Assembly (NCBI RefSeq): GCF_015278315.1
Contig: NZ_JADIJE010000011.1
Coordinates: forward strand, 62,001 to 126,000
DNA from: Microbacterium ureisolvens
GTDB taxonomy: Bacteria; Actinomycetota; Actinomycetes; Actinomycetales; Microbacteriaceae
Direction: 5' to 3'
DNA length: 64,000 nucleotides
The notes beneath the pieces are model-generated. The model was not told where the DNA came from and made no database searches. It saw only the letters and a program-made list of their open reading frames with translations. Each line of letters begins with the position of its first letter. The first letter of the stretch is position 1. A program made the position numbers and the translations under genes. Shown here in pieces: positions 7,754-48,745 of this stretch.

Positions 7754-8998
7754 GTGACCGGATCCGCCGCTGACGAGGCGATCGCCCGCGCCCACCGCGA
7801 AGAGTGGGCGCGGGTGGTCGCCGGCCTCGCCCGCCGCTTCGGCGACCTCGACCTCGCCGAGGACGCGGCTGCCGAGGCGTTCGTGGCCGCCGTGGAGCGG
7901 TGGCCGCAGGACGGGGTGCCCCCGAACCCCGGCGCGTGGCTGACCACGACCGCGGCGCGCAAGGCGATCGACCGGCTGCGGCGTGAGTCGCGTCGCGACG
8001 ACAAGCACAGGGCGGCGCAGATGCTGGTGGACGACACTCCCCCAAGGCCGACGGGACCGGTGGACGACGACCGGCTTCGGCTGGTCTTCACCTGCTGTCA
8101 TCCTGCACTGGCCATGGAGGCTCGGGTGGCACTCACCCTTCGGCTGCTGGGCGGACTCACGGTCGGCGAGATCGCCCATGCCTTCTTCGTGCCCGAGACC
8201 ACCATGGCTCGGCGGATCACCCGCGCGAAGGCCAAGATCGCGGCGACGCGCATCCCCTACCGGGTGCCCTCGGCAGCCGACATCCGCGATCGGATCGCCG
8301 GTGTGCTCGGGGTGGTCTACCTGATCTTCAACGAGGGCTATCTGGCGACCACCGGCGACGACCCGCTGCGGGTGGACCTGACCGACGAGGCGATCCGCCT
8401 CGGCCGGCTCCTGCGCACCCTCCTTCCCGACGAGGGCGAGGCGACGGGCCTGCTCGCACTGATGCTGCTGATCGACGCGCGGCGCAGTGCGCGCGTGTCG
8501 CACTCCGGCGAACTGGTCACGTTGGAGGAGCAGGACCGCGGCGCGTGGAACCGTGAGCTGATCGACGAGGGTCACACCCTGGTGCGGGAACGGATAGCCG
8601 CAGTCGCCGCCGGCGCGCAGCCACCGGGGCGGTACCAGCTGCTCGCCGCGATCAACGCCGTGCACACCGATGCTCCGTCCGCCCGCGACACCGACTGGTC
8701 GCAGATCGTGGCGCTCTACGACCGTCTGGTGGGCATCGATCCGTCGAGCATCGTGCGACTCAATCGCGCCATCGCGGTCGCCGAGCTGGATGGACCGGAC
8801 GTCGCCCTCGCGGAGATCGACCGACTCGGCGAGACGCTGGACGGCTACCACGCGTTCCATGCCGCGCGCGCCGACCTGCTCCGCCGGCTCGGCCGCAGCG
8901 ACGCGTCGCGGTCGGCGTACGACAGAGCCATCCAGCTCGCCGGCAACCCCGCCGAGCGGGCGTACCTCGTCAGGCGCCGCGACCAGCTGGTCTGGTGA
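7754..8998 (+). CDS. ECF42-type RNA polymerase sigma factor with TPR-like C-terminal domain
   Basis: The 414-aa protein has sigma-70 regions 2 and 4 in its first ~190 residues (FGDLDLAEDAAAEAFVAAVE, then LTVGEIAHAFFVPETTMARR). A long C-terminal helical domain with FTCCHPALAMEARVAL and repeat-like segments ending DRAIQLAGNPAERAYLVR follows. This layout and the neighbouring YCII gene define the ECF42 group, which lacks a classical anti-sigma factor. The C-terminal domain is thought to control activity. The start at 7754 (GTG, then TGSAADEAIARAHREEW) follows homologues; GGGAG lies just upstream but with short spacing. An in-frame start at 7673 is also possible. Confidence 0.88.
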   Translation: MTGSAADEAIARAHREEWARVVAGLARRFGDLDLAEDAAAEAFVAAVERWPQDGVPPNPGAWLTTTAARKAIDRLRRESRRDDKHRAAQMLVDDTPPRPTGPVDDDRLRLVFTCCHPALAMEARVALTLRLLGGLTVGEIAHAFFVPETTMARRITRAKAKIAATRIPYRVPSAADIRDRIAGVLGVVYLIFNEGYLATTGDDPLRVDLTDEAIRLGRLLRTLLPDEGEATGLLALMLLIDARRSARVSHSGELVTLEEQDRGAWNRELIDEGHTLVRERIAAVAAGAQPPGRYQLLAAINAVHTDAPSARDTDWSQIVALYDRLVGIDPSSIVRLNRAIAVAELDGPDVALAEIDRLGETLDGYHAFHAARADLLRRLGRSDASRSAYDRAIQLAGNPAERAYLVRRRDQLVW

Positions 8999-9089: not shown

Positions 9090-10316
9090 ATGACCCTCGA
9101 CCTCGAAGCGATCTACGTCGATCTGCACCGGCATCCGGAGCTGTCCTTCCAGGAGACCCGGACGGCAGGGGTGATCGCGCAGCACCTGACAGCGCTCGGC
9201 ATCGAGTTCGAGGAGGGGATCGGCAAGACCGGCATCGCCGCGCGGATCTCCAACGGTGACGGGCCGGTCGTGTGGCTGCGCGCCGACATGGATGCGCTGC
9301 CGGTGCCCGAGCAGACCGGCCTCGAATACGCGAGCACCGCGCGCGGCACCGACCCCGCCGGCAACGACGTGCCGGTGATGCACGCGTGCGGCCACGACAT
9401 GCATGTCACCGCGCTGCTCGGCGCGCTCGAGCGTCTCGTCGCCGCCAAGGACGAATGGTCCGGCACGATCGTCGCCGTCTTCCAGCCCGCCGAGGAGTAC
9501 GGCGCGGGGTCGCAGGCGATGATCGCCGACGGCGTGCTCGACCGCTTCCCGAAGCCCGACATCGTGCTCGGCCAGCACGTCACCCCGCTGCCCGCGGGCA
9601 CCATCGGCGTGCGCAGCGGCACCCAGATGGCGGCATCCGACGGCCTGACCGTCACGCTGCTCGGCCGCGGCGGACACGGCTCGCGCCCGCAGGCGACGAT
9701 CGACCCCGTGGTGATGGCCGCCGCCACCGTCATGCGCCTCCAGACGATCGTCTCGCGCGAGGTCGACCCCCGCGACGTCGCCGTCGTCACCGTCGGCTCG
9801 ATCCACGCGGGTCTGAAGAACAACATCATCCCCGCCGAGGCCAGGCTCGAGCTCAGCCTGCGCTACCCCGACGACGAGGCCCGCAACCGCGTGCTCGAGA
9901 AGGTCGAGCGGATCGTGCGGGCCGAGGCCCAGGCATCCGGAGCCGAGCAGCCGCCCGTGATCGCCGTCGACCACTCGCTCCCTCCCACCATCAACGACGT
10001 CGACGCCACCGCGCGCCTGACCACCGCCTTCGACGCGGCCTTCGGCGAAGGCACCGTCATCGACCCCGGCATGTTCACCGGCAGCGAAGACGTGTCGTGG
10101 TTCGCCCGCGAGGCGGGCGCGCCGCTGGTGTTCTGGTTCTGGGGCGGCGTCGACCCGGCGAAGTTCGCCGAGGCGCTGGCCGCGGGAACCGTCGAGCGCG
10201 ACATCCCGACGAACCACTCGCCGTTCTTCGCGCCGGTCCTCCAGCCCACGCTCGGCCGCGGGGTCGACGCGCTCGTGGTCGCCGCACGCGAGTTCCTGGG
10301 CGCTCCCACGGCCTGA
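9090..10316 (+). CDS. M20 family amidohydrolase
   Basis: The 408-aa enzyme belongs to the M20D amidohydrolases (hippurate/N-acyl-amino-acid hydrolase type), which cleave an acyl group from an amino-acid-like substrate using two metal ions. Seen: DLHRHPELSFQE near the start, the metal-binding HACGHDMH (His98, Cys100, His102), the catalytic PAEEYGAGS with Glu135-Glu136, and a dimerization-domain stretch with RGGHGSRP. It is cytosolic, with no signal peptide. The ATG at 9090 follows a -10 box TAGGCT (9077-9082) by 7 nt, so the mRNA is probably leaderless. The natural substrate is unknown. Confidence 0.93.
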   Translation: MTLDLEAIYVDLHRHPELSFQETRTAGVIAQHLTALGIEFEEGIGKTGIAARISNGDGPVVWLRADMDALPVPEQTGLEYASTARGTDPAGNDVPVMHACGHDMHVTALLGALERLVAAKDEWSGTIVAVFQPAEEYGAGSQAMIADGVLDRFPKPDIVLGQHVTPLPAGTIGVRSGTQMAASDGLTVTLLGRGGHGSRPQATIDPVVMAAATVMRLQTIVSREVDPRDVAVVTVGSIHAGLKNNIIPAEARLELSLRYPDDEARNRVLEKVERIVRAEAQASGAEQPPVIAVDHSLPPTINDVDATARLTTAFDAAFGEGTVIDPGMFTGSEDVSWFAREAGAPLVFWFWGGVDPAKFAEALAAGTVERDIPTNHSPFFAPVLQPTLGRGVDALVVAAREFLGAPTA

Positions 10317-10332
10317 CAGGGGACGGATGCCG

Positions 10333-10422
10333 CGACCCGCGGCGCGCGGCCGACCCGCGGCGCGCGGCCGGCCCGCGGCGCGCGGCCGGCCCGCGGCTCG
10401 TAGCCGGCCCGCGGCTCGCAGC
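10333..10422. repeat. Tandem repeat, five copies of an 18-bp unit
   Basis: The unit CGACCCGCGGCGCGCGGC repeats head to tail at 10333, 10351, 10369, 10387 and 10405, drifting to CGGCCCGCGGCTCGCAGC, then degenerates to about 10440. It fills the gap between the convergent M20 and VanZ-RDD genes, just outside both stop codons. It is nearly pure G/C. The period is a multiple of three, but no gene reads through it. Confidence 0.9.
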
Positions 10423-10448
10423 CGGCCGCGGCCCCGGCCGCCGGAAGC

Positions 10449-11543
10449 CTAGGGCTCGGTCGGATGCCGCGAACACGCGGCATCCGGCTCCTCCCGTTCG
10501 CGGGCGTCCGCGTGGCGCTGGCCGGAGACGAGCCCCGGGAGCCCCCGGTGGCCGTCGGTCGTGAACACCAGCACGATCGAGACCACAGCGAACACGCCCG
10601 CTACGAAACCCCACGCACCGGGCATGGAGCTGAGTACGAGGTAGCCGCCGATGCCGCCGGCCCAGCGGAGGAAGCGGGCGAGGCCGGTCGGAAGGGGTCC
10701 GCCGGCGAAGCGCAGCTGCACCGCGTGGTCGCCGATCGTCGCGCCGGTGGCGAGCGTGACGGCGAGCCACACCACGACGGTCACCATCCCGCCGACCAGA
10801 CTCGCGGCCGAGCCGTCGCGCACCGCGGCGTCGGCGCCGAACAGGTACAGAAGGAGCTGCACTCCGACCACGACCGACATGGTGAGCACCCACGCGGCGA
10901 GCGCATCGCACAGCATGCCGAGGAGGCGGCGGCCGCGGGTGACCGGCTGCGGCAGATCGGCGTCGGGCAGCCGCGGCGATCCCCGGTGGCGGCGCGGTAC
11001 GAGCAGGCCCAGCAGCGAGCCGAGCACCGCGCCCAGCGTGTTGGTGAGCAGGTCGTCGACGTCGAACACCCGGTAGGCGCACGGGTAGAGGCCCCAGACG
11101 CCGGTGTACTGGGTGAGCTCGACGAAGCCCGACAGCACGACGCCGGCGACCACGGCGGTGATGATGCCGCGGCCGCCGAGCACGCGGAGGAATAAGCCGA
11201 GCGGCACGAACAGCAGCACGTTCAGCAGCAGCTGGAGCACCGCGGGGTCGGTCGCCGCCGCCGTCCCGCGGCGTGCGATCGCGCCGCGGATGTCGTCGGC
11301 GATCGCCGTGACGTCGAAGTTGACGCCGGCGCAGCGGATCGAGTCGGGGTCGGGCAGCGGCAGGAGCGTGTAGGTCCAGACCGCCATCACGTAGATCAGG
11401 GCGGCGCCCCACAGCACGAACCTGCCGAAGCCGAAACCGCCGCGCCGACGGTAGCTGAGGGCGACGAAGGGCACGAACAGCAGCACGCCGACGACCACGC
11501 CGAGGGTGATCGCGAGCACGCCGAGGATGATCTGCTCGTCCAC
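10449..11543 (-). CDS. VanZ-RDD fusion membrane protein
   Basis: The 364-aa membrane protein joins an N-terminal VanZ-like domain (about residues 1-190, with the conserved NVLLFVPLG and TQYTGVWG...DVDDLLTNTLGAVLG segments) to an RDD domain (about 205-350, TIGDHAVQLRFAGG). VanZ-like proteins in actinobacteria are linked loosely to envelope stress and glycopeptide tolerance; this copy has no vanHAX neighbours. The GTG at 11543 has GACACT 6 nt upstream, consistent with a leaderless start. An open frame continues 59 codons further upstream but crosses the promoter region of the divergent permease gene. Confidence 0.85.
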   Translation of the reverse strand: MDEQIILGVLAITLGVVVGVLLFVPFVALSYRRRGGFGFGRFVLWGAALIYVMAVWTYTLLPLPDPDSIRCAGVNFDVTAIADDIRGAIARRGTAAATDPAVLQLLLNVLLFVPLGLFLRVLGGRGIITAVVAGVVLSGFVELTQYTGVWGLYPCAYRVFDVDDLLTNTLGAVLGSLLGLLVPRRHRGSPRLPDADLPQPVTRGRRLLGMLCDALAAWVLTMSVVVGVQLLLYLFGADAAVRDGSAASLVGGMVTVVVWLAVTLATGATIGDHAVQLRFAGGPLPTGLARFLRWAGGIGGYLVLSSMPGAWGFVAGVFAVVSIVLVFTTDGHRGLPGLVSGQRHADAREREEPDAACSRHPTEP

Positions 11544-43077: not shown

Positions 43078-43932
43078 TCAGTAGTCGACGCGGCGGCCGA
43101 AGCGCCGCTCGCCCCGCGGCCGCGGGGAGCAGATGGCGACCGGGCGCAGCCGCACGATCTCGTGGGGCTGGAGGCCGACGGTCTCGCCGAAGTCCTCGAC
43201 CGAGGTGAAGCCGCCCTGCGCGTCGCGCTCCTTGACGGCGCGGCGGGCGCGCGAGCGCGTCATGCCCGGCAGCTTCTCGAGCTCGGCGGCGGGGGCGGTG
43301 TTGACGTCGATCGGCTCGGTCGCCGCCTCGGCCGCGACGAGGTCGTCGCTGGACGCGCCGACCGCATCCGCGAGCGCGTCGGCATTCGCGGACGCGGCGG
43401 CACCGGCAGCCTTAGCCTTCGCCGCTTCGTCGGCGGCCGATGCGCGCTGGGCAGCCGCCGCGGCGGCGGCTGCGTTGCGCTGCCGGCGGGATCGGCGTGC
43501 GGGCTTCTTCGCCGGGGCGGCTTCGCCGGTGCCTGAGGCTTTCGCACCGGATGCCCGGTGCCACGTCGCCTCGCGTGTGCGGGAGGCCGCCGACGCCTGA
43601 CCGGTGCGCTCGAGACGGCGCTGCCACATCGTCCGCAGCCACCCCGGGTTCACGGCGAGCGCGACGACCATGCCGGCGAGATACACGATCGCGCGCACCA
43701 GCGGCTGCCACTGCCCCCACAGCTCGAAGCTCGCCAGGAGCGCGGCGGCACCCCACACCACCCCGAGGATGATGAGCCGGCGGCTGCGCGAGGCGACGCC
43801 GATGATCGCGAACCCGAGCCACGTGAGGATCGGCCCGGGGATGACGGTGAGCAGCATCCACGAGCTCATCCCGAGGAGCCACCCGATGCTCGGGGCGTCG
43901 GTCGCGGCGGCGGCCCGTGCGGAGCTCGTCAT
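43078..43932 (-). CDS. Membrane protein with C-terminal helix-hairpin-helix domain
   Basis: The 284-aa protein has three or four transmembrane helices (about residues 15-110), an Ala/Lys-rich stretch (about 140-200), and then a helix-hairpin-helix domain (about 220-275; IDVNTAPAAELEKLPGMTRS, followed by ARRAVKERDAQGGFTSVEDF). HhH domains usually bind DNA or mediate protein contacts, which is unusual for a membrane protein. It ends FGRRVDY, like the ATPase of this operon (GGRTVDY). Its start overlaps the DUF1257 gene stop by ATGA. It is the last gene of the seven-gene operon. Function unknown. Confidence 0.85.
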   Translation of the reverse strand: MTSSARAAAATDAPSIGWLLGMSSWMLLTVIPGPILTWLGFAIIGVASRSRRLIILGVVWGAAALLASFELWGQWQPLVRAIVYLAGMVVALAVNPGWLRTMWQRRLERTGQASAASRTREATWHRASGAKASGTGEAAPAKKPARRSRRQRNAAAAAAAAQRASAADEAAKAKAAGAAASANADALADAVGASSDDLVAAEAATEPIDVNTAPAAELEKLPGMTRSRARRAVKERDAQGGFTSVEDFGETVGLQPHEIVRLRPVAICSPRPRGERRFGRRVDY

Positions 43933-44453
43933 GCGTAGTCCTTCACATCGAGCACCATCGTGACGGTGTCCTGGTCGTCGCGCGTCTCCGAGACGAGCTC
44001 GAAGCCGGCGGATGCCGCGCGCTCGCGGATCCGCGCCGCCACGGTCTGCTGCACGCGCAGCGCGTAAGCCGCGTCGAGGCGCTCGACGAGGGCTGCGGCA
44101 TCTGTCTCGGCCAGTTCCCGCCCGTCGGCCCGGCGGAAGTGCGCCGCCCACACGCCCTCGTCGGAGCGCGCCATCTCGAGCTCGACGCCGTCGATCACCG
44201 CGGTGAGCCGGTCGCCGCCGAGCGCGACCTCGCTCGCGCCGATGTCGCGGAGCGCGTCGCCGAGGAGGTCGGGATCCTTCATGCGGGTGCGCACCGAGAT
44301 CGGGCGCGCACCTCCGTCGTCGACGGCGCCGGTCTCGGCGCGGTCGTCCTCGCTCGCGCCGCCGAGCTGCGTGAGGGCGCCGATGCCGCCCGCCGCCGAG
44401 ATCGCGGTGACGGCGGCCAGCGCCGCGGGGATCAGGATCAGCGACACGCTCAT
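43929..44453 (-). CDS. DUF1257 (Ycf35-like) protein with membrane anchor
   Basis: The 174-aa protein begins with a hydrophobic helix (about residues 3-27, VSLILIPAALAAVTAISAAG) that is absent from the typical DUF1257 family. The family domain follows (about 50-170): VRTRMKDPDLLGDALRDIG, YALRVQQTVAARIRERA and GFELVSETRD. Ycf35 proteins are conserved in cyanobacteria and plastids but their role is unknown. It overlaps the radical SAM gene upstream and the HhH gene downstream by 4 bp each. Confidence 0.8.
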   Translation of the reverse strand: MSVSLILIPAALAAVTAISAAGGIGALTQLGGASEDDRAETGAVDDGGARPISVRTRMKDPDLLGDALRDIGASEVALGGDRLTAVIDGVELEMARSDEGVWAAHFRRADGRELAETDAAALVERLDAAYALRVQQTVAARIRERAASAGFELVSETRDDQDTVTMVLDVKDYA

Positions 44454-45217
44454 CGCGCGGCCTCCGCTCTCGTTCGTGCGTCCGCGGCCACCTGTGCGGG
44501 GCTGTCGGCACGCGGGCCCAGGTCGTCCAGCAGGGCGGCGATCGCGGCATCCGTCGCCCATCCGTTCACCGCGACGACGCCATCGCGGTCGATCCGCACC
44601 TCGAGCCGGTCGCCTGCGCCCCGCGCGGCGATGTCGCGCACCTCCGCCGCGTACCGCCCGCTCAGCGCGCGGATGCCCTGGTTGCGCGAGCCCACCCACG
44701 GGCGGCGCGCGTCGGGGAGGTGGCGCAGGTACGGCCCGTCGCACAGCAGGTCGGTGGCCTCCAGCAGCGCCGCGATGTCGTCGCGGCCGGCGGCGGCCCA
44801 GGCTAGGAGCCGATCGAGCGGGTACCCGGTGAACGTCATGACGCCCAGGCCCGCCTCGCGGAAGACGCGGGCGACGGATGCCGCGGCCCCGGCCTGATCG
44901 AACGGCTCGCCGCCGAGCAGCGTGAGGCCCTCGGCCCCCGCCGCCGTCGCCTGCTCGAGCCACTCGGCCGCCGTCGCGGTCACCTCGGTGAGGCGCCCGC
45001 CCCGCTCCGCCCACAGCTGCGGGTTGAAGCACTCGGGGCAGCGCACCGCGCACCCCTGCAGCCACACGGCCGCCCTCCTGCCCGGGCCTTCGGCCTCGGT
45101 CGCCGGGAGGAACCGCGACCAGCGCACGTCAGCGGCATCCGGGCGCGCGGGCGCCACGGTGCCGAGGAGCGAGTCCCCGCCCCCGCGCCCCGGCGCCTGC
45201 GCGACGACGACCGTCAC
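44450..45217 (-). CDS. 4Fe-4S/radical SAM domain protein
   Basis: The 255-aa protein has a radical-SAM-type cluster motif, C-x3-C-x2-C in LQGCAVRCPECFNPQLW, followed by LTLLGGEPFDQAGA (a GGE motif for SAM binding). It resembles activating enzymes such as NrdG and the 4Fe-4S single-cluster family. The start GTG at 45217 overlaps the DUF2997 gene stop as GTGA, and its stop overlaps the DUF1257 start as ATGA. No nrdD-type partner is seen, so its substrate is probably a protein of this operon or a small molecule. Confidence 0.85.
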   Translation of the reverse strand: MTVVVAQAPGRGGGDSLLGTVAPARPDAADVRWSRFLPATEAEGPGRRAAVWLQGCAVRCPECFNPQLWAERGGRLTEVTATAAEWLEQATAAGAEGLTLLGGEPFDQAGAAASVARVFREAGLGVMTFTGYPLDRLLAWAAAGRDDIAALLEATDLLCDGPYLRHLPDARRPWVGSRNQGIRALSGRYAAEVRDIAARGAGDRLEVRIDRDGVVAVNGWATDAAIAALLDDLGPRADSPAQVAADARTRAEAAR

Positions 45218-45429
45218 CGCAGGCCGTCCGACTGCTCGGTCTCGATCGCCGTCGTGCTCTGCACGGACGCGGTGGTGTAGTCCTCGGTGAAGCGCGACGA
45301 GACCGTCTCGGCGTCCAGGAGGGCCTCCAGCGCCTCGATGTGGTCGAGGCACTCCGGTCCGTGCATGCCGATGGTCTCGGCGTCGACGGTGCCGTCGGCG
45401 CGAAGCCTCACCACGAGCTGCTTGGCCAT
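45214..45429 (-). CDS. DUF2997 family small protein
   Basis: The 71-aa protein has the DUF2997 pattern: KQLVVRLRADGTVDAETIGM, ECLDHIEALEALL and FTEDYTT. The last ~20 residues are Thr/Ser/Glu-rich and probably unstructured. In cyanobacteria DUF2997 genes lie beside ycf35 and ferredoxin genes. The ATG at 45429 has GGAAGG upstream and lies 37 nt after the ATPase stop. Its length and context support a small partner or carrier for the ATPase, DUF1257 and radical SAM proteins. Confidence 0.82.
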   Translation of the reverse strand: MAKQLVVRLRADGTVDAETIGMHGPECLDHIEALEALLDAETVSSRFTEDYTTASVQSTTAIETEQSDGLR

Positions 45430-45466
45430 GATCCGCCCTTCCTTCCGTCCCGTTCCGCACCGGCGC

Positions 45467-47089
<1,623 letters not shown>

Positions 47090-47117
47090 GTCAGCTCCTT
47101 CTCGAACGGATGCCGCG

Positions 47118-47915
47118 TCATTGCGTCGGCGTGGGGGTCGGGGTGGTCGTCGGGGCGGGGTCGCCCGCGGGCGTGTCGAGGGTGATGGTCCACGTGCCGT
47201 CGCCGGTGGCGTCGACCTGGAAGACGACGCGGTCGGTCGGCTCCCACGACGCGCGCACGTCGACCTCGTCGAACTCGTTGACCAGCGAGTCCCATCCGCC
47301 GACCGTGACGGCGGCGACGAGGAACAGCCCGGAGCCGGTGTGCTGGAACCGGCCGCTGAGCGCGTCGCCCTCGTACATCAGCACCGCGTTGCCCTGGCCC
47401 GAAGCGGTCTCGCCCATGGGCACGACCTCCGGCTTCGTGACGGTGGCGGTCCAGTCGGTCAGCGACTCTCCGAACCAGACCAGGCCGTCCTCAGCGGCAG
47501 GGAGCACGAGCACGTCGCCGTCCGGGTAGAGCGAGCCGAGGTACCCCGGGGGCTCCCATTCGTCGGACTCGACGTCGAACTCGACCCCGGTCTGCTGGTA
47601 CACCGACACCCAGTCGGCCTCGGCGCTCTCGGGGTTGGTGAACATGAGCATGTCGGAGTTCGCGTCCAGGCGCAGGAAGCCGCCCTCGGGGGTGCCGCGC
47701 AGCTCGCCGTCGACGACCTCGTACTCCTGCGGATCGTCGGCGAGCCACGGATAGTCACCGTCTGCAGGGGCGGCGTCGTCCACGTAGACGTCGCCGGTCA
47801 GCGGGTTCACGGCGACCTGGGGCAGCACGAAGAACGCGATGACCGAGACGACGATCGTCCCGAGGATCCACGTCGCGACCGAGAACCGCCGGATGCGCTC
47901 GGCACCCCCGGTCAC
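47118..47915 (-). CDS. Membrane-anchored extracytoplasmic protein, paralogue A
   Basis: The 265-aa protein has one N-terminal transmembrane helix (about 12-34, VATWILGTIVVSVIAFFVLP) and a long extracytoplasmic part ending in a Thr/Pro-rich tail (PAPTTTPTPTPTQ). A C-terminal beta-rich stretch (EPTDRVVFQVDATGDGTWTI) resembles the end of the next protein upstream in the operon. The GTG at 47915 overlaps the stop of that gene (GTGA). The family is not recognised. The upstream protein and this one may form a surface partner of the ATPase. Confidence 0.75.
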   Translation of the reverse strand: MTGGAERIRRFSVATWILGTIVVSVIAFFVLPQVAVNPLTGDVYVDDAAPADGDYPWLADDPQEYEVVDGELRGTPEGGFLRLDANSDMLMFTNPESAEADWVSVYQQTGVEFDVESDEWEPPGYLGSLYPDGDVLVLPAAEDGLVWFGESLTDWTATVTKPEVVPMGETASGQGNAVLMYEGDALSGRFQHTGSGLFLVAAVTVGGWDSLVNEFDEVDVRASWEPTDRVVFQVDATGDGTWTITLDTPAGDPAPTTTPTPTPTQ

Positions 47916-48745
47916 GGACCGGCCTCCGTCTGCGTCGGCGTCGGCTCGCCGGGCGTCGGGGTCGGGGCGCTCGGGGTCGGAGCGGTCGTCGGGGCCACCG
48001 GCTCTGTGAAGGTGATCGTCCAGCCGGCCTCGTCCCACGCGTCGATGGCGAACAGCACGAGGTCGCCGTCCTCCCACGCGATCGAGCGGTCGGTCGGGTC
48101 GTACTCGCTGAAGATCTCGGTGACGCCGGCGGTGGTGACCGTCTCGATGGTCACGCGGCCCTCGCCGCGGCTGCTCACGCGTGCCGTGGTGGCGCCGCCC
48201 TCGACCAGGAACGCCGTGGAGCCGAAGCCGCTGACGGTGCCGGAGCGGGTCTCGACGGGCGGCGTCGTGATCTGCAGCCGCCACCGCTCGTCGCGGAAGC
48301 CGTCGATCCACAGCTCGACGTCGGGCTGCGGCACGAGCACCCACAGTCCTTCGGTGGCCGCGTACGTCTCGAATTCGGCGGGATCGCCGTACGGGCCCTC
48401 GACGAGGGTCTCACCGCCGGGTCCCGTGACCGCGACCCGCCCGACATACGTGTCGTCGAGCTCGGTGATGAGCAGCGGCTGGGCGGGATCGAGTCCCTCG
48501 AGCCGGATCATGGCGCCGTCGACACCGCTGTACACGCGGTCGCCCTCGTCTTCGGCGACGGGCGGGTCGGGGTTCTGCCACGGCTCCAGGGCGTAGTCGT
48601 CGTTCGAGGTCGCCTCGTCTCCCGCCTCCGCGAGAGTGGCGCCGCCGATCAGGGCGACCATGACGAGCCCGATGGTCCACACGAAGGCGTTGAAGGTGAG
48701 CAGCCGGCTGCGCGCGGCGCCGCTCAGCGTCGTGTTCGAACTCAT
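47912..48745 (-). CDS. Membrane-anchored extracytoplasmic protein, paralogue B
   Basis: The 277-aa protein starts with a hydrophobic helix (about residues 12-38, TFNAFVWTIGLVMVALIGGA) and continues with a beta-rich extracytoplasmic domain and a Thr/Pro-rich tail (PTPTPGEPTPTQTEAGP). DPTDRSIAWEDGDLVLFAID and AGWTITFTEP correspond to the C-terminal domain of paralogue A. The ATG at 48745 is preceded by GGAAAGGCGG, and TAGCCT or TATAGC (about 48766-48775 on this strand) may be the -10 box of the whole operon. Confidence 0.75.
   Translation of the reverse strand: MSSNTTLSGAARSRLLTFNAFVWTIGLVMVALIGGATLAEAGDEATSNDDYALEPWQNPDPPVAEDEGDRVYSGVDGAMIRLEGLDPAQPLLITELDDTYVGRVAVTGPGGETLVEGPYGDPAEFETYAATEGLWVLVPQPDVELWIDGFRDERWRLQITTPPVETRSGTVSGFGSTAFLVEGGATTARVSSRGEGRVTIETVTTAGVTEIFSEYDPTDRSIAWEDGDLVLFAIDAWDEAGWTITFTEPVAPTTAPTPSAPTPTPGEPTPTQTEAGP

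Follow-up and report, generated by a model that had tools for sequence, protein, structure and literature searches.

A five-gene accessory module in Microbacterium ureisolvens joins a Ycf46-kind tandem AAA+ ATPase to a membrane protein that ends in the same C-terminal tag

Introduction

What holds together a compact gene cluster in which an actinobacterium keeps relatives of the cyanobacterial Ycf46 and Ycf35 proteins beside a radical S-adenosylmethionine (SAM) protein and a membrane protein, and what could such a cluster do? We addressed this question in a stretch of 64,000 nucleotides from Microbacterium ureisolvens (RefSeq assembly GCF_015278315.1), hereafter the window, which lies within contig 3 of the 4.49-Mb genome. 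The locus encodes a Ycf46-kind tandem AAA+ ATPase (A), a DUF2997 protein (d), a radical SAM protein of the NrdG/PFL-activase type (R), a distant relative of DUF1257/Ycf35 (Y) and a multi-span membrane protein with one HhH domain (H), as well as two surface proteins (g1 and g2). A first-pass annotation, made from the letters of the window alone, had proposed that these genes form one membrane-tethered system related to the cyanobacterial ycf46/ycf35 neighbourhood. Here, we describe how far the module extends among bacteria, report a short C-terminal sequence shared by A and H, and weigh the explanations that this sequence invites.

Results

Conservation of the five-gene module

The comparison covers 81 loci, namely the window and the best 80 of at least 583 loci found in a genome scan with A, in which genes were called before counting and neighbours were assigned with profiles grown from the window's genes. 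A is present in all 81 by design, Y in 73, R in 72, H in 71 and d in 69, and the next commonest neighbour family reaches 12 of the 81 loci; as some loci are short contigs, the absences of core genes are upper bounds. Adjacent core genes lie within 50 bases of each other in 265 of 298 pairs, and the gene order varies between HRAYd (22 loci), AYdHR (15), dHRAY (7), SSAdRYH (5), AdYHR (4) and others. This repeated reshuffling of genes that nevertheless stay together argues for one function. The hosts include Actinomycetota, Bacillota, Gastranaerophilales, Planctomycetota and one betaproteobacterium, and the closest ATPase relative among the loci, with 91% identity, is that of Microbacterium helvum. 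The first-pass annotation had staked its proposal beforehand on neighbourhood in related genomes, and the genes do adjoin across them. Its description of seven minus-strand genes, mostly with 4-bp overlaps, also holds at the level of coordinates: four of the six junctions overlap by 4 bp, the remaining two are gaps of 28 and 37 bases, and the same seven genes were returned by a gene caller that had learned codon usage from the ATPase and radical SAM genes of this locus. Within the genus, the ATPase occurs in 8 of 59 genomes, its own included (E <= 1e-100), and the module is also found on Paenarthrobacter and Rhodococcus plasmids; the system is accessory.

A C-terminal tag shared by the ATPase and the membrane protein

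A and H have no domain in common, and both end in R-x-[ILVMF]-[DE]-[FYLIVMW]-COOH. Sequence comparison across the loci places this tag in the window at 45470..45484 for A (R-T-V-D-Y) and at 43081..43095 for H (R-R-V-D-Y), both on the minus strand. Among called genes, with open reading frames (ORFs) cut by a contig end left out, it terminates 71 of 82 A, 87 of 91 H and 3 of 971 other proteins, while a stricter pattern that also requires G or E ahead of the Arg terminates 71 of 82, 80 of 91 and 2 of 971, respectively; the 82 include one unrelated AAA protein (L030:1846) and the 91 two likely false members (L006:1929-3110 and L008:132-1025). No columns of H are more conserved than those of the tag Arg (91 of 92 rows) and Asp (89 of 92). 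Five of the 11 untagged A proteins carry the tag followed by two extra residues (L056, L064, L069, L076, L078), and the other six are found at L015, L021, L030 (twice, one being the unrelated AAA protein), L049 (at a contig end) and L079. The three carriers outside A and H comprise two unclassified genes adjoining H genes (L055, L073) and a DUF2997 protein (L077).

Pattern searches of the whole M. ureisolvens genome gave two matches for each of two patterns, and the real gene ends among them are those of A and H only; of the other two matches, one is a frame of 27 codons and the other lacks a stop. In genome G002, A and seven H ORFs terminate in the patterns, and seven further matches lie in frames of at most 40 codons. 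With the pattern reversed as a control, the first search gave 7 matches in the M. ureisolvens genome and 3 in G002, the second 3 and 4, respectively. In the former genome the tag pattern, with 2 matches against 7 and 2 against 3, is not rarer than its control, so the evidential weight rests on the real gene ends. Chance or composition as the origin of the tag is ruled out by the 3 in 971 other genes together with the reading of frames at the genome-wide matches. The tag is not part of the HhH domain either, since H-type proteins without HhH (L022 and L079 by Pfam, L025 by eye) still carry it; with the GYF_2+HhH protein of L038, which also ends in the tag, they mark it as a portable label. The ATPase tail further contains a conserved R-G-G-R, and ubiquitin-like 'RGG' processing was ruled out by sight, from H tails without a double glycine. 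Overall, the shared tag looks like a private address label for A and H.

Architecture of the ATPase

A (45467..47089, minus strand, 540 aa) matches PF00004 at 3.3e-30. Its structure was modelled with AlphaFold2 (AF2) from 69 sequences (69 of the 82 rows of alignment A1), the best of five models having a confidence score (pLDDT) of 86.7 and the others 75.8-80.0. Residues 1-506 of this model align with the D1-D2 rings of p97/Cdc48 (Z 27.2, 463 residues, root-mean-square deviation 5.3), and p97, Cdc48 and Drg1 are the near-tied top structural matches. By fold match, residues 1-225 (46415..47089, minus strand) would form a dead, D1-like first AAA domain; the Walker A pattern is found there in 0 of 81 family rows (the unrelated AAA protein L030:1846-3456 being excluded). 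Residues 226-510 (45560..46414, minus strand) make up a second, active-looking AAA domain with its Walker A at 46229-46252. In this domain Walker A and GRFDE each occur in 81 of 82 rows, the sole exception being L030:1846-3456, which was dropped from the motif table; the domain also has invariant columns. The tandem architecture with a Walker A-less first domain was, like the tag, overlooked in the first-pass annotation.

The tandem AAA fold along the whole of A and a conserved C-terminal tail liken it to p97/Cdc48, whereas p97 has a Walker A in both AAA domains and an N-terminal adapter-binding domain that A lacks, residue 1 of the model aligning at p97 residue 210. The p97 tail is an adapter site on the D2 face, read by PUB/PUL adapters, according to the available part of PMC10641518, which also defines the C-terminal HbYX motif. 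The V-D-Y end of A differs from HbYX in having Tyr last instead of last but one. The tail of the A model (block 531-540) is defined more clearly than the preceding block (76 against 55), and Arg536 takes part in a bridge, the partner of which may be residues 507-508, by elimination from the DSSP string. On the basis of the model, A is a p97/Cdc48-like ATPase and a putative unfoldase.

A related ATPase (42% identity, ending V-R-K-L-E-M) is encoded at 9354-11509 of the Treponema succinifaciens plasmid pTRESU01 (L115), where it and a radical SAM gene sit amid contractile-injection-system genes (VgrG/Pvc8, baseplate assembly protein V).

The membrane protein and systems reduced to A and H

H (43078..43932, minus strand, 284 aa) consists of N-terminal hydrophobic spans recognised by hydropathy, a basic Ala-rich linker, one HhH domain (PF12836, HHH_3, 1e-13; T2SSK, 6.6e-7) and the C-terminal tag, which agrees with its first annotation as a membrane protein with an HhH domain and with the membrane-linked look of the module. 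Basic segments of membrane proteins lie on the cytoplasmic side (the positive-inside rule), and from its charge the linker, HhH domain and C-terminus of H are predicted to be cytoplasmic. While the HHH_3 and T2SSK matches recall ComEA/T2SS-K HhH proteins, H differs from these in its multi-span N-terminus, its predicted cytoplasmic linker and its tag. At L070:2296-7335, seven consecutive H-type ORFs (one of just 90 codons), all tag-ended, lie upstream of radical SAM and ATPase genes.

Seven systems have A and H alone in the stretch read, six of them from one Sanguibacter-family clade (a family with a match in 8 of 121 genomes) and one from a betaproteobacterial metagenome-assembled genome, with two origins on a quick tree that leaves out L030:1846 and L174 (which is the L079 locus again) and in which rows of more than 700 residues were trimmed to the last 560. 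The H tag is kept in all seven, whereas the acidic tag residue of A is gone in all seven, the ATPases ending in VVF, VVF, VAY, VAY and LTF and two having no tag. No DUF2997 occurs anywhere in the genomes G210, G211 and G212, of which G210 and G211 hold A+H-only systems; in the other five A+H-only genomes the 7.5-8 kb around A were read. Neither R nor Y was found within the stretch read of any of the seven, and neither was sought genome-wide. Since H keeps its tag without Y, d or R nearby, the H tag matters without them. Q491 and R505-A506-V507 of the ATPase are retained in the A+H-only systems (6 of the 6 that were aligned, as well as L079 and L030); at these positions the cyanobacterial groups lacking H show A or M, and R. 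At L188, where A, Y, d and H precede the contig end, A keeps its tag (R-M-V-D-F). As far as the sequences tell, the tag of A tends to accompany Y, d and R but is not required.

The DUF2997, DUF1257-like and radical SAM proteins

The small protein d (45214..45429, minus strand, 71 aa) matches PF11211 with 45.4 bits against a cut-off of 24.1 (E 7.3e-12), so its DUF2997 assignment is significant. Gly24 and Cys27 are invariant: all 71 module rows have them, as do all 35 additional rows, of which 30 are cyanobacterial and 5 come from plasmids. The DUF2997 protein at L077:10885-11091 ends R-R-I-D-F, and several related ones end I-R-L-D or similar.

For Y (43929..44453, minus strand, 174 aa), the DUF1257 assignment does not stand for the window protein by itself and does stand for its family. 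Alone, the protein gives no Pfam match up to E 5 and does not reach the PF06868 gathering cut-off, and a search of its own genome for PF06868 gave 0 matches. In a profile-profile comparison (hhalign), the Y family (62 of the 75 rows of alignment A3) aligns with cyanobacterial DUF1257 at 93.4% probability (E 2.4e-7, 110 columns), the cyanobacterial set being 15 proteins that all match PF06868, and 5 of the 62 family members match PF06868 themselves at E <= 0.01 (best 3.5e-4). The protein has a hydrophobic N-terminal stretch by eye, with AF2 pLDDT below 50 over residues 8-28. A Foldseek search with its model gave no confident match (best E 0.026), and marginal resemblances were to the SNF1/AMPK regulatory domain (Z 9.3), the beta2-adaptin appendage (8.7) and Chk1 KA1 (8.4). 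The Y and d profiles gave nothing convincing against the sequences of solved structures (Y best E 0.014; d none).

R (44450..45217, minus strand, 255 aa) matches PF13353 at 2.8e-28 and has its CX3CX2C at 45029-45052, a motif present in 74 of 74 family rows. With this radical SAM core its nearest kin are the NrdG/PFL activases, from which it differs by falling under family cut-offs (79.3 bits against 126.1 for the NCBIfam NrdG model), by adjoining a Ycf46-kind ATPase and by a C-terminal stretch with a conserved N-G (71 of 74 and 72 of 74).

Cyanobacterial kin

Homology searches bear out the proposed kinship of the ATPase, DUF2997 and DUF1257 proteins to the cyanobacterial ycf genes, and the available part of PMC4284462 lists DUF2997-ycf35-fed7 as a cyanobacterial cluster. 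Full-length A matches cyanobacterial Ycf46-type ATPases at E <= 1e-40 in 18 of 18 searched genomes of the phylum, at least three of which are Gastranaerophilales-type genomes carrying the tagged module; the best match per genome has 39-50% identity, slr0374/Ycf46 not being singled out among cyanobacterial paralogues. DUF2997 occurs in 87 of 146 sampled cyanobacterial genomes, and a DUF1257-type gene adjoins it in 30 of the 30 loci read (15 verified by Pfam). In 29 of these 30 loci (L085-L114) the DUF2997 protein ends in Trp, often as S/T-D/E-W, possibly a tail of its own.

The cyanobacterial ATPases fall into two main groups. Those of group 1 have a DUF1257-like neighbour in 12 of 12 cases (weak profile matches, E 2e-5 to 4e-4) and end Y-[QK]-R-[ML]-E-F in 10 of 12, and those of group 2 (n=14) have neither such a neighbour in the stretch read nor such an end; no H match was found in either group within the approximately 1.5 kb read on each side. 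Three plasmid systems, L116 and L120 from cyanobacteria and L118 from Paenibacillus, have annotated DUF1257 and DUF2997 genes, no tag and no H match. On the Geminocystis plasmid L116, the DUF1257 gene is seemingly split across two frames (8168-8553), the annotated gene ending at 8476 and a stretch resembling the usual C-terminus lying in another frame. Compared with the cyanobacterial and plastid Ycf46-Ycf35-DUF2997-Fed7 set, with which it shares a homologous ATPase and DUF2997 beside a DUF1257 relative, the module described here adds H, the radical SAM protein and the R-x-x-D-x tag. That the radical SAM protein might stand in for the ferredoxin, as the first-pass annotation suggested, is a conjecture.

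In the available parts of the literature, fed7 and ycf35 are under SigD in standard conditions (PMC8875361), and the presence of ycf35 and ycf46 differs between marine and freshwater red algal plastids (PMC5940233). The earlier statement that no function had been assigned is incomplete with regard to Ycf46: the accessible text of PMC7496141 (citing Jiang et al. 2015) places Synechocystis slr0374 in a stress operon and reports that its inactivation lowers the activity of the carbonic anhydrase EcaB. No description of the five-gene module or of the tag was found in the literature available, in which few subscription journals were covered.

Two additional surface proteins

Upstream of A, g1 (47912..48745, minus strand, 277 aa) and g2 (47118..47915, minus strand, 265 aa) are paralogues, with homologues in 10 of the 81 loci, every one actinobacterial. 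In g1, one N-terminal hydrophobic helix seen by eye is followed by a predicted outside domain of about 200 residues and a T/P-rich end, a build that g2 shares; family-model searches gave no match above cut-off for either protein. They are a lineage-specific addition to the module, a point that the first annotation had missed.

Discussion

Our preferred reading, put forward tentatively, is that A is a membrane-recruited p97/Cdc48-like ATPase, that the tag on A and H governs this recruitment and that Y, d and R act as a control unit. The five-gene module and the tag are plain in the sequences; docking, competition and gating are steps that we infer. The tag of H, held cytoplasmic by the membrane helices, would dock on A, perhaps near the end of the second AAA domain (about residues 491-509 of the window ATPase), and thereby bring the ATPase ring to the membrane, where it could pull on or remodel the membrane or HhH-bound clients. 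The tag of A would compete for this site from within the ATPase itself, and Y, d and R would control or mature this state, perhaps through the d cysteine or an iron-sulphur signal. As H keeps its tag in the A+H-only systems while A loses its own, the simplest reading is that A reads the H tag. Several observations weigh against this. The A+H-only systems are two independent cases only, and common ancestry may account for the shared residues, since the tagged ATPases group together on the tree (support 94). The putative docking site is derived from the secondary-structure string of the A model. R-A-V is present in a Comamonas ATPase without H or tag, and L189, which has all five genes and an H ending R-V-L-D-Y, has H-A-V in its place in an ATPase ending G-E-L-N. 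Further untagged ATPases stand with Y, d and/or R at L015, L021 and L049 (the latter with a short tail at a contig end), and tags are kept without other core genes by the split A of L190 (R-R-V-D-F; no other core gene in 8 kb) and by the ATPase of L020 (none nearby).

A broader form of the same idea, which we regard as doubtful, is that the tag is an address code marking out clients reserved for a p97-like bacterial ATPase whose first ring is dead. Tagged membrane proteins, one to seven per locus and with or without HhH or GYF parts, would recruit the ring, the ring's own tag would be an auto-inhibitory mimic, and a switch made of the radical SAM protein, the DUF2997 cysteine and DUF1257 would pick the winning copy; cyanobacterial and plastid ycf46-ycf35 would then represent a branch of this machine that is poor in tags.

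Other explanations assign the tag a different partner or the module a different task. Y rather than A might read the tag, with A and H both docked on Y and so joined in one membrane complex. A does lose its tag in systems that lack Y, d and R, the cyanobacterial ATPases beside a DUF1257-like gene end Y-[QK]-R-[ML]-E-F in 10 of 12 cases while the 14 without this neighbour do not, and the marginal fold resemblances of Y include an adaptin appendage, a class of domain that binds short peptides. We nevertheless consider Y an unlikely reader, given that H keeps its tag in all seven systems whose stretch read contains no Y, that L116, L118 and L120 have DUF1257 and DUF2997 with neither tag nor H match, and that L189 has Y beside an untagged ATPase. 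Alternatively, the tag could be a substrate of R, with both A and H being modified at their C-termini. Enzymes of the NrdG/PFL-activase kind target short stretches at the C-terminal ends of their partner proteins, R sits beside A and H in 72 of the 81 loci, and the ATPase tail has its conserved R-G-G-R, but H stays tagged in A+H-only systems, all of them devoid of R in the stretch read, Glu replaces the Gly before the Arg in 28 of 91 H tails, and the Paenibacillus plasmid L118 has R with no tag and no H match, which together leave this proposal improbable; a tag that is solely a radical SAM product is likewise weakened by the A+H-only systems.

The patchy distribution of the ATPase (8 of 59 genomes of the genus) and its plasmid occurrences in Paenarthrobacter and Rhodococcus would suit an accessory defence or conflict system, and a viperin model matches with 16 bits and a model of IetA, from the anti-phage system IetAS, with 84 bits. 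The IetA similarity is confined to the AAA domain (residues 266-480), the IetS protease partner was not found among the seven proteins, and no defence family recurs in the neighbour clustering, in which unclustered neighbours are unannotated. Moreover, the module is common among gut loci of the Gastranaerophilales type (22 loci with the order HRAYd), and the window's DUF2997 protein has no match among phage records (tblastn, E <= 0.01), so that a role in defence seems to us quite improbable. Least probable of all is that the tag is a degron or protease recognition end by which the system turns over H: short, C-terminal and present on a membrane protein and an AAA+ protein, it has the right form, but the ATPase itself carries it, no protease family recurs in the module and just A and H end in it in their own genome.

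Cyanobacteria and algal plastids have long been known to conserve Ycf46, Ycf35 and DUF2997 as proteins of obscure function. In culturable Actinomycetota and Bacillota they have a compact, accessory counterpart whose five-residue tag can be removed or exchanged, which makes their function directly testable, and the tentative reading of a membrane-recruited ATPase points to a bacterial p97-like machine that may have a labelled set of membrane partners.

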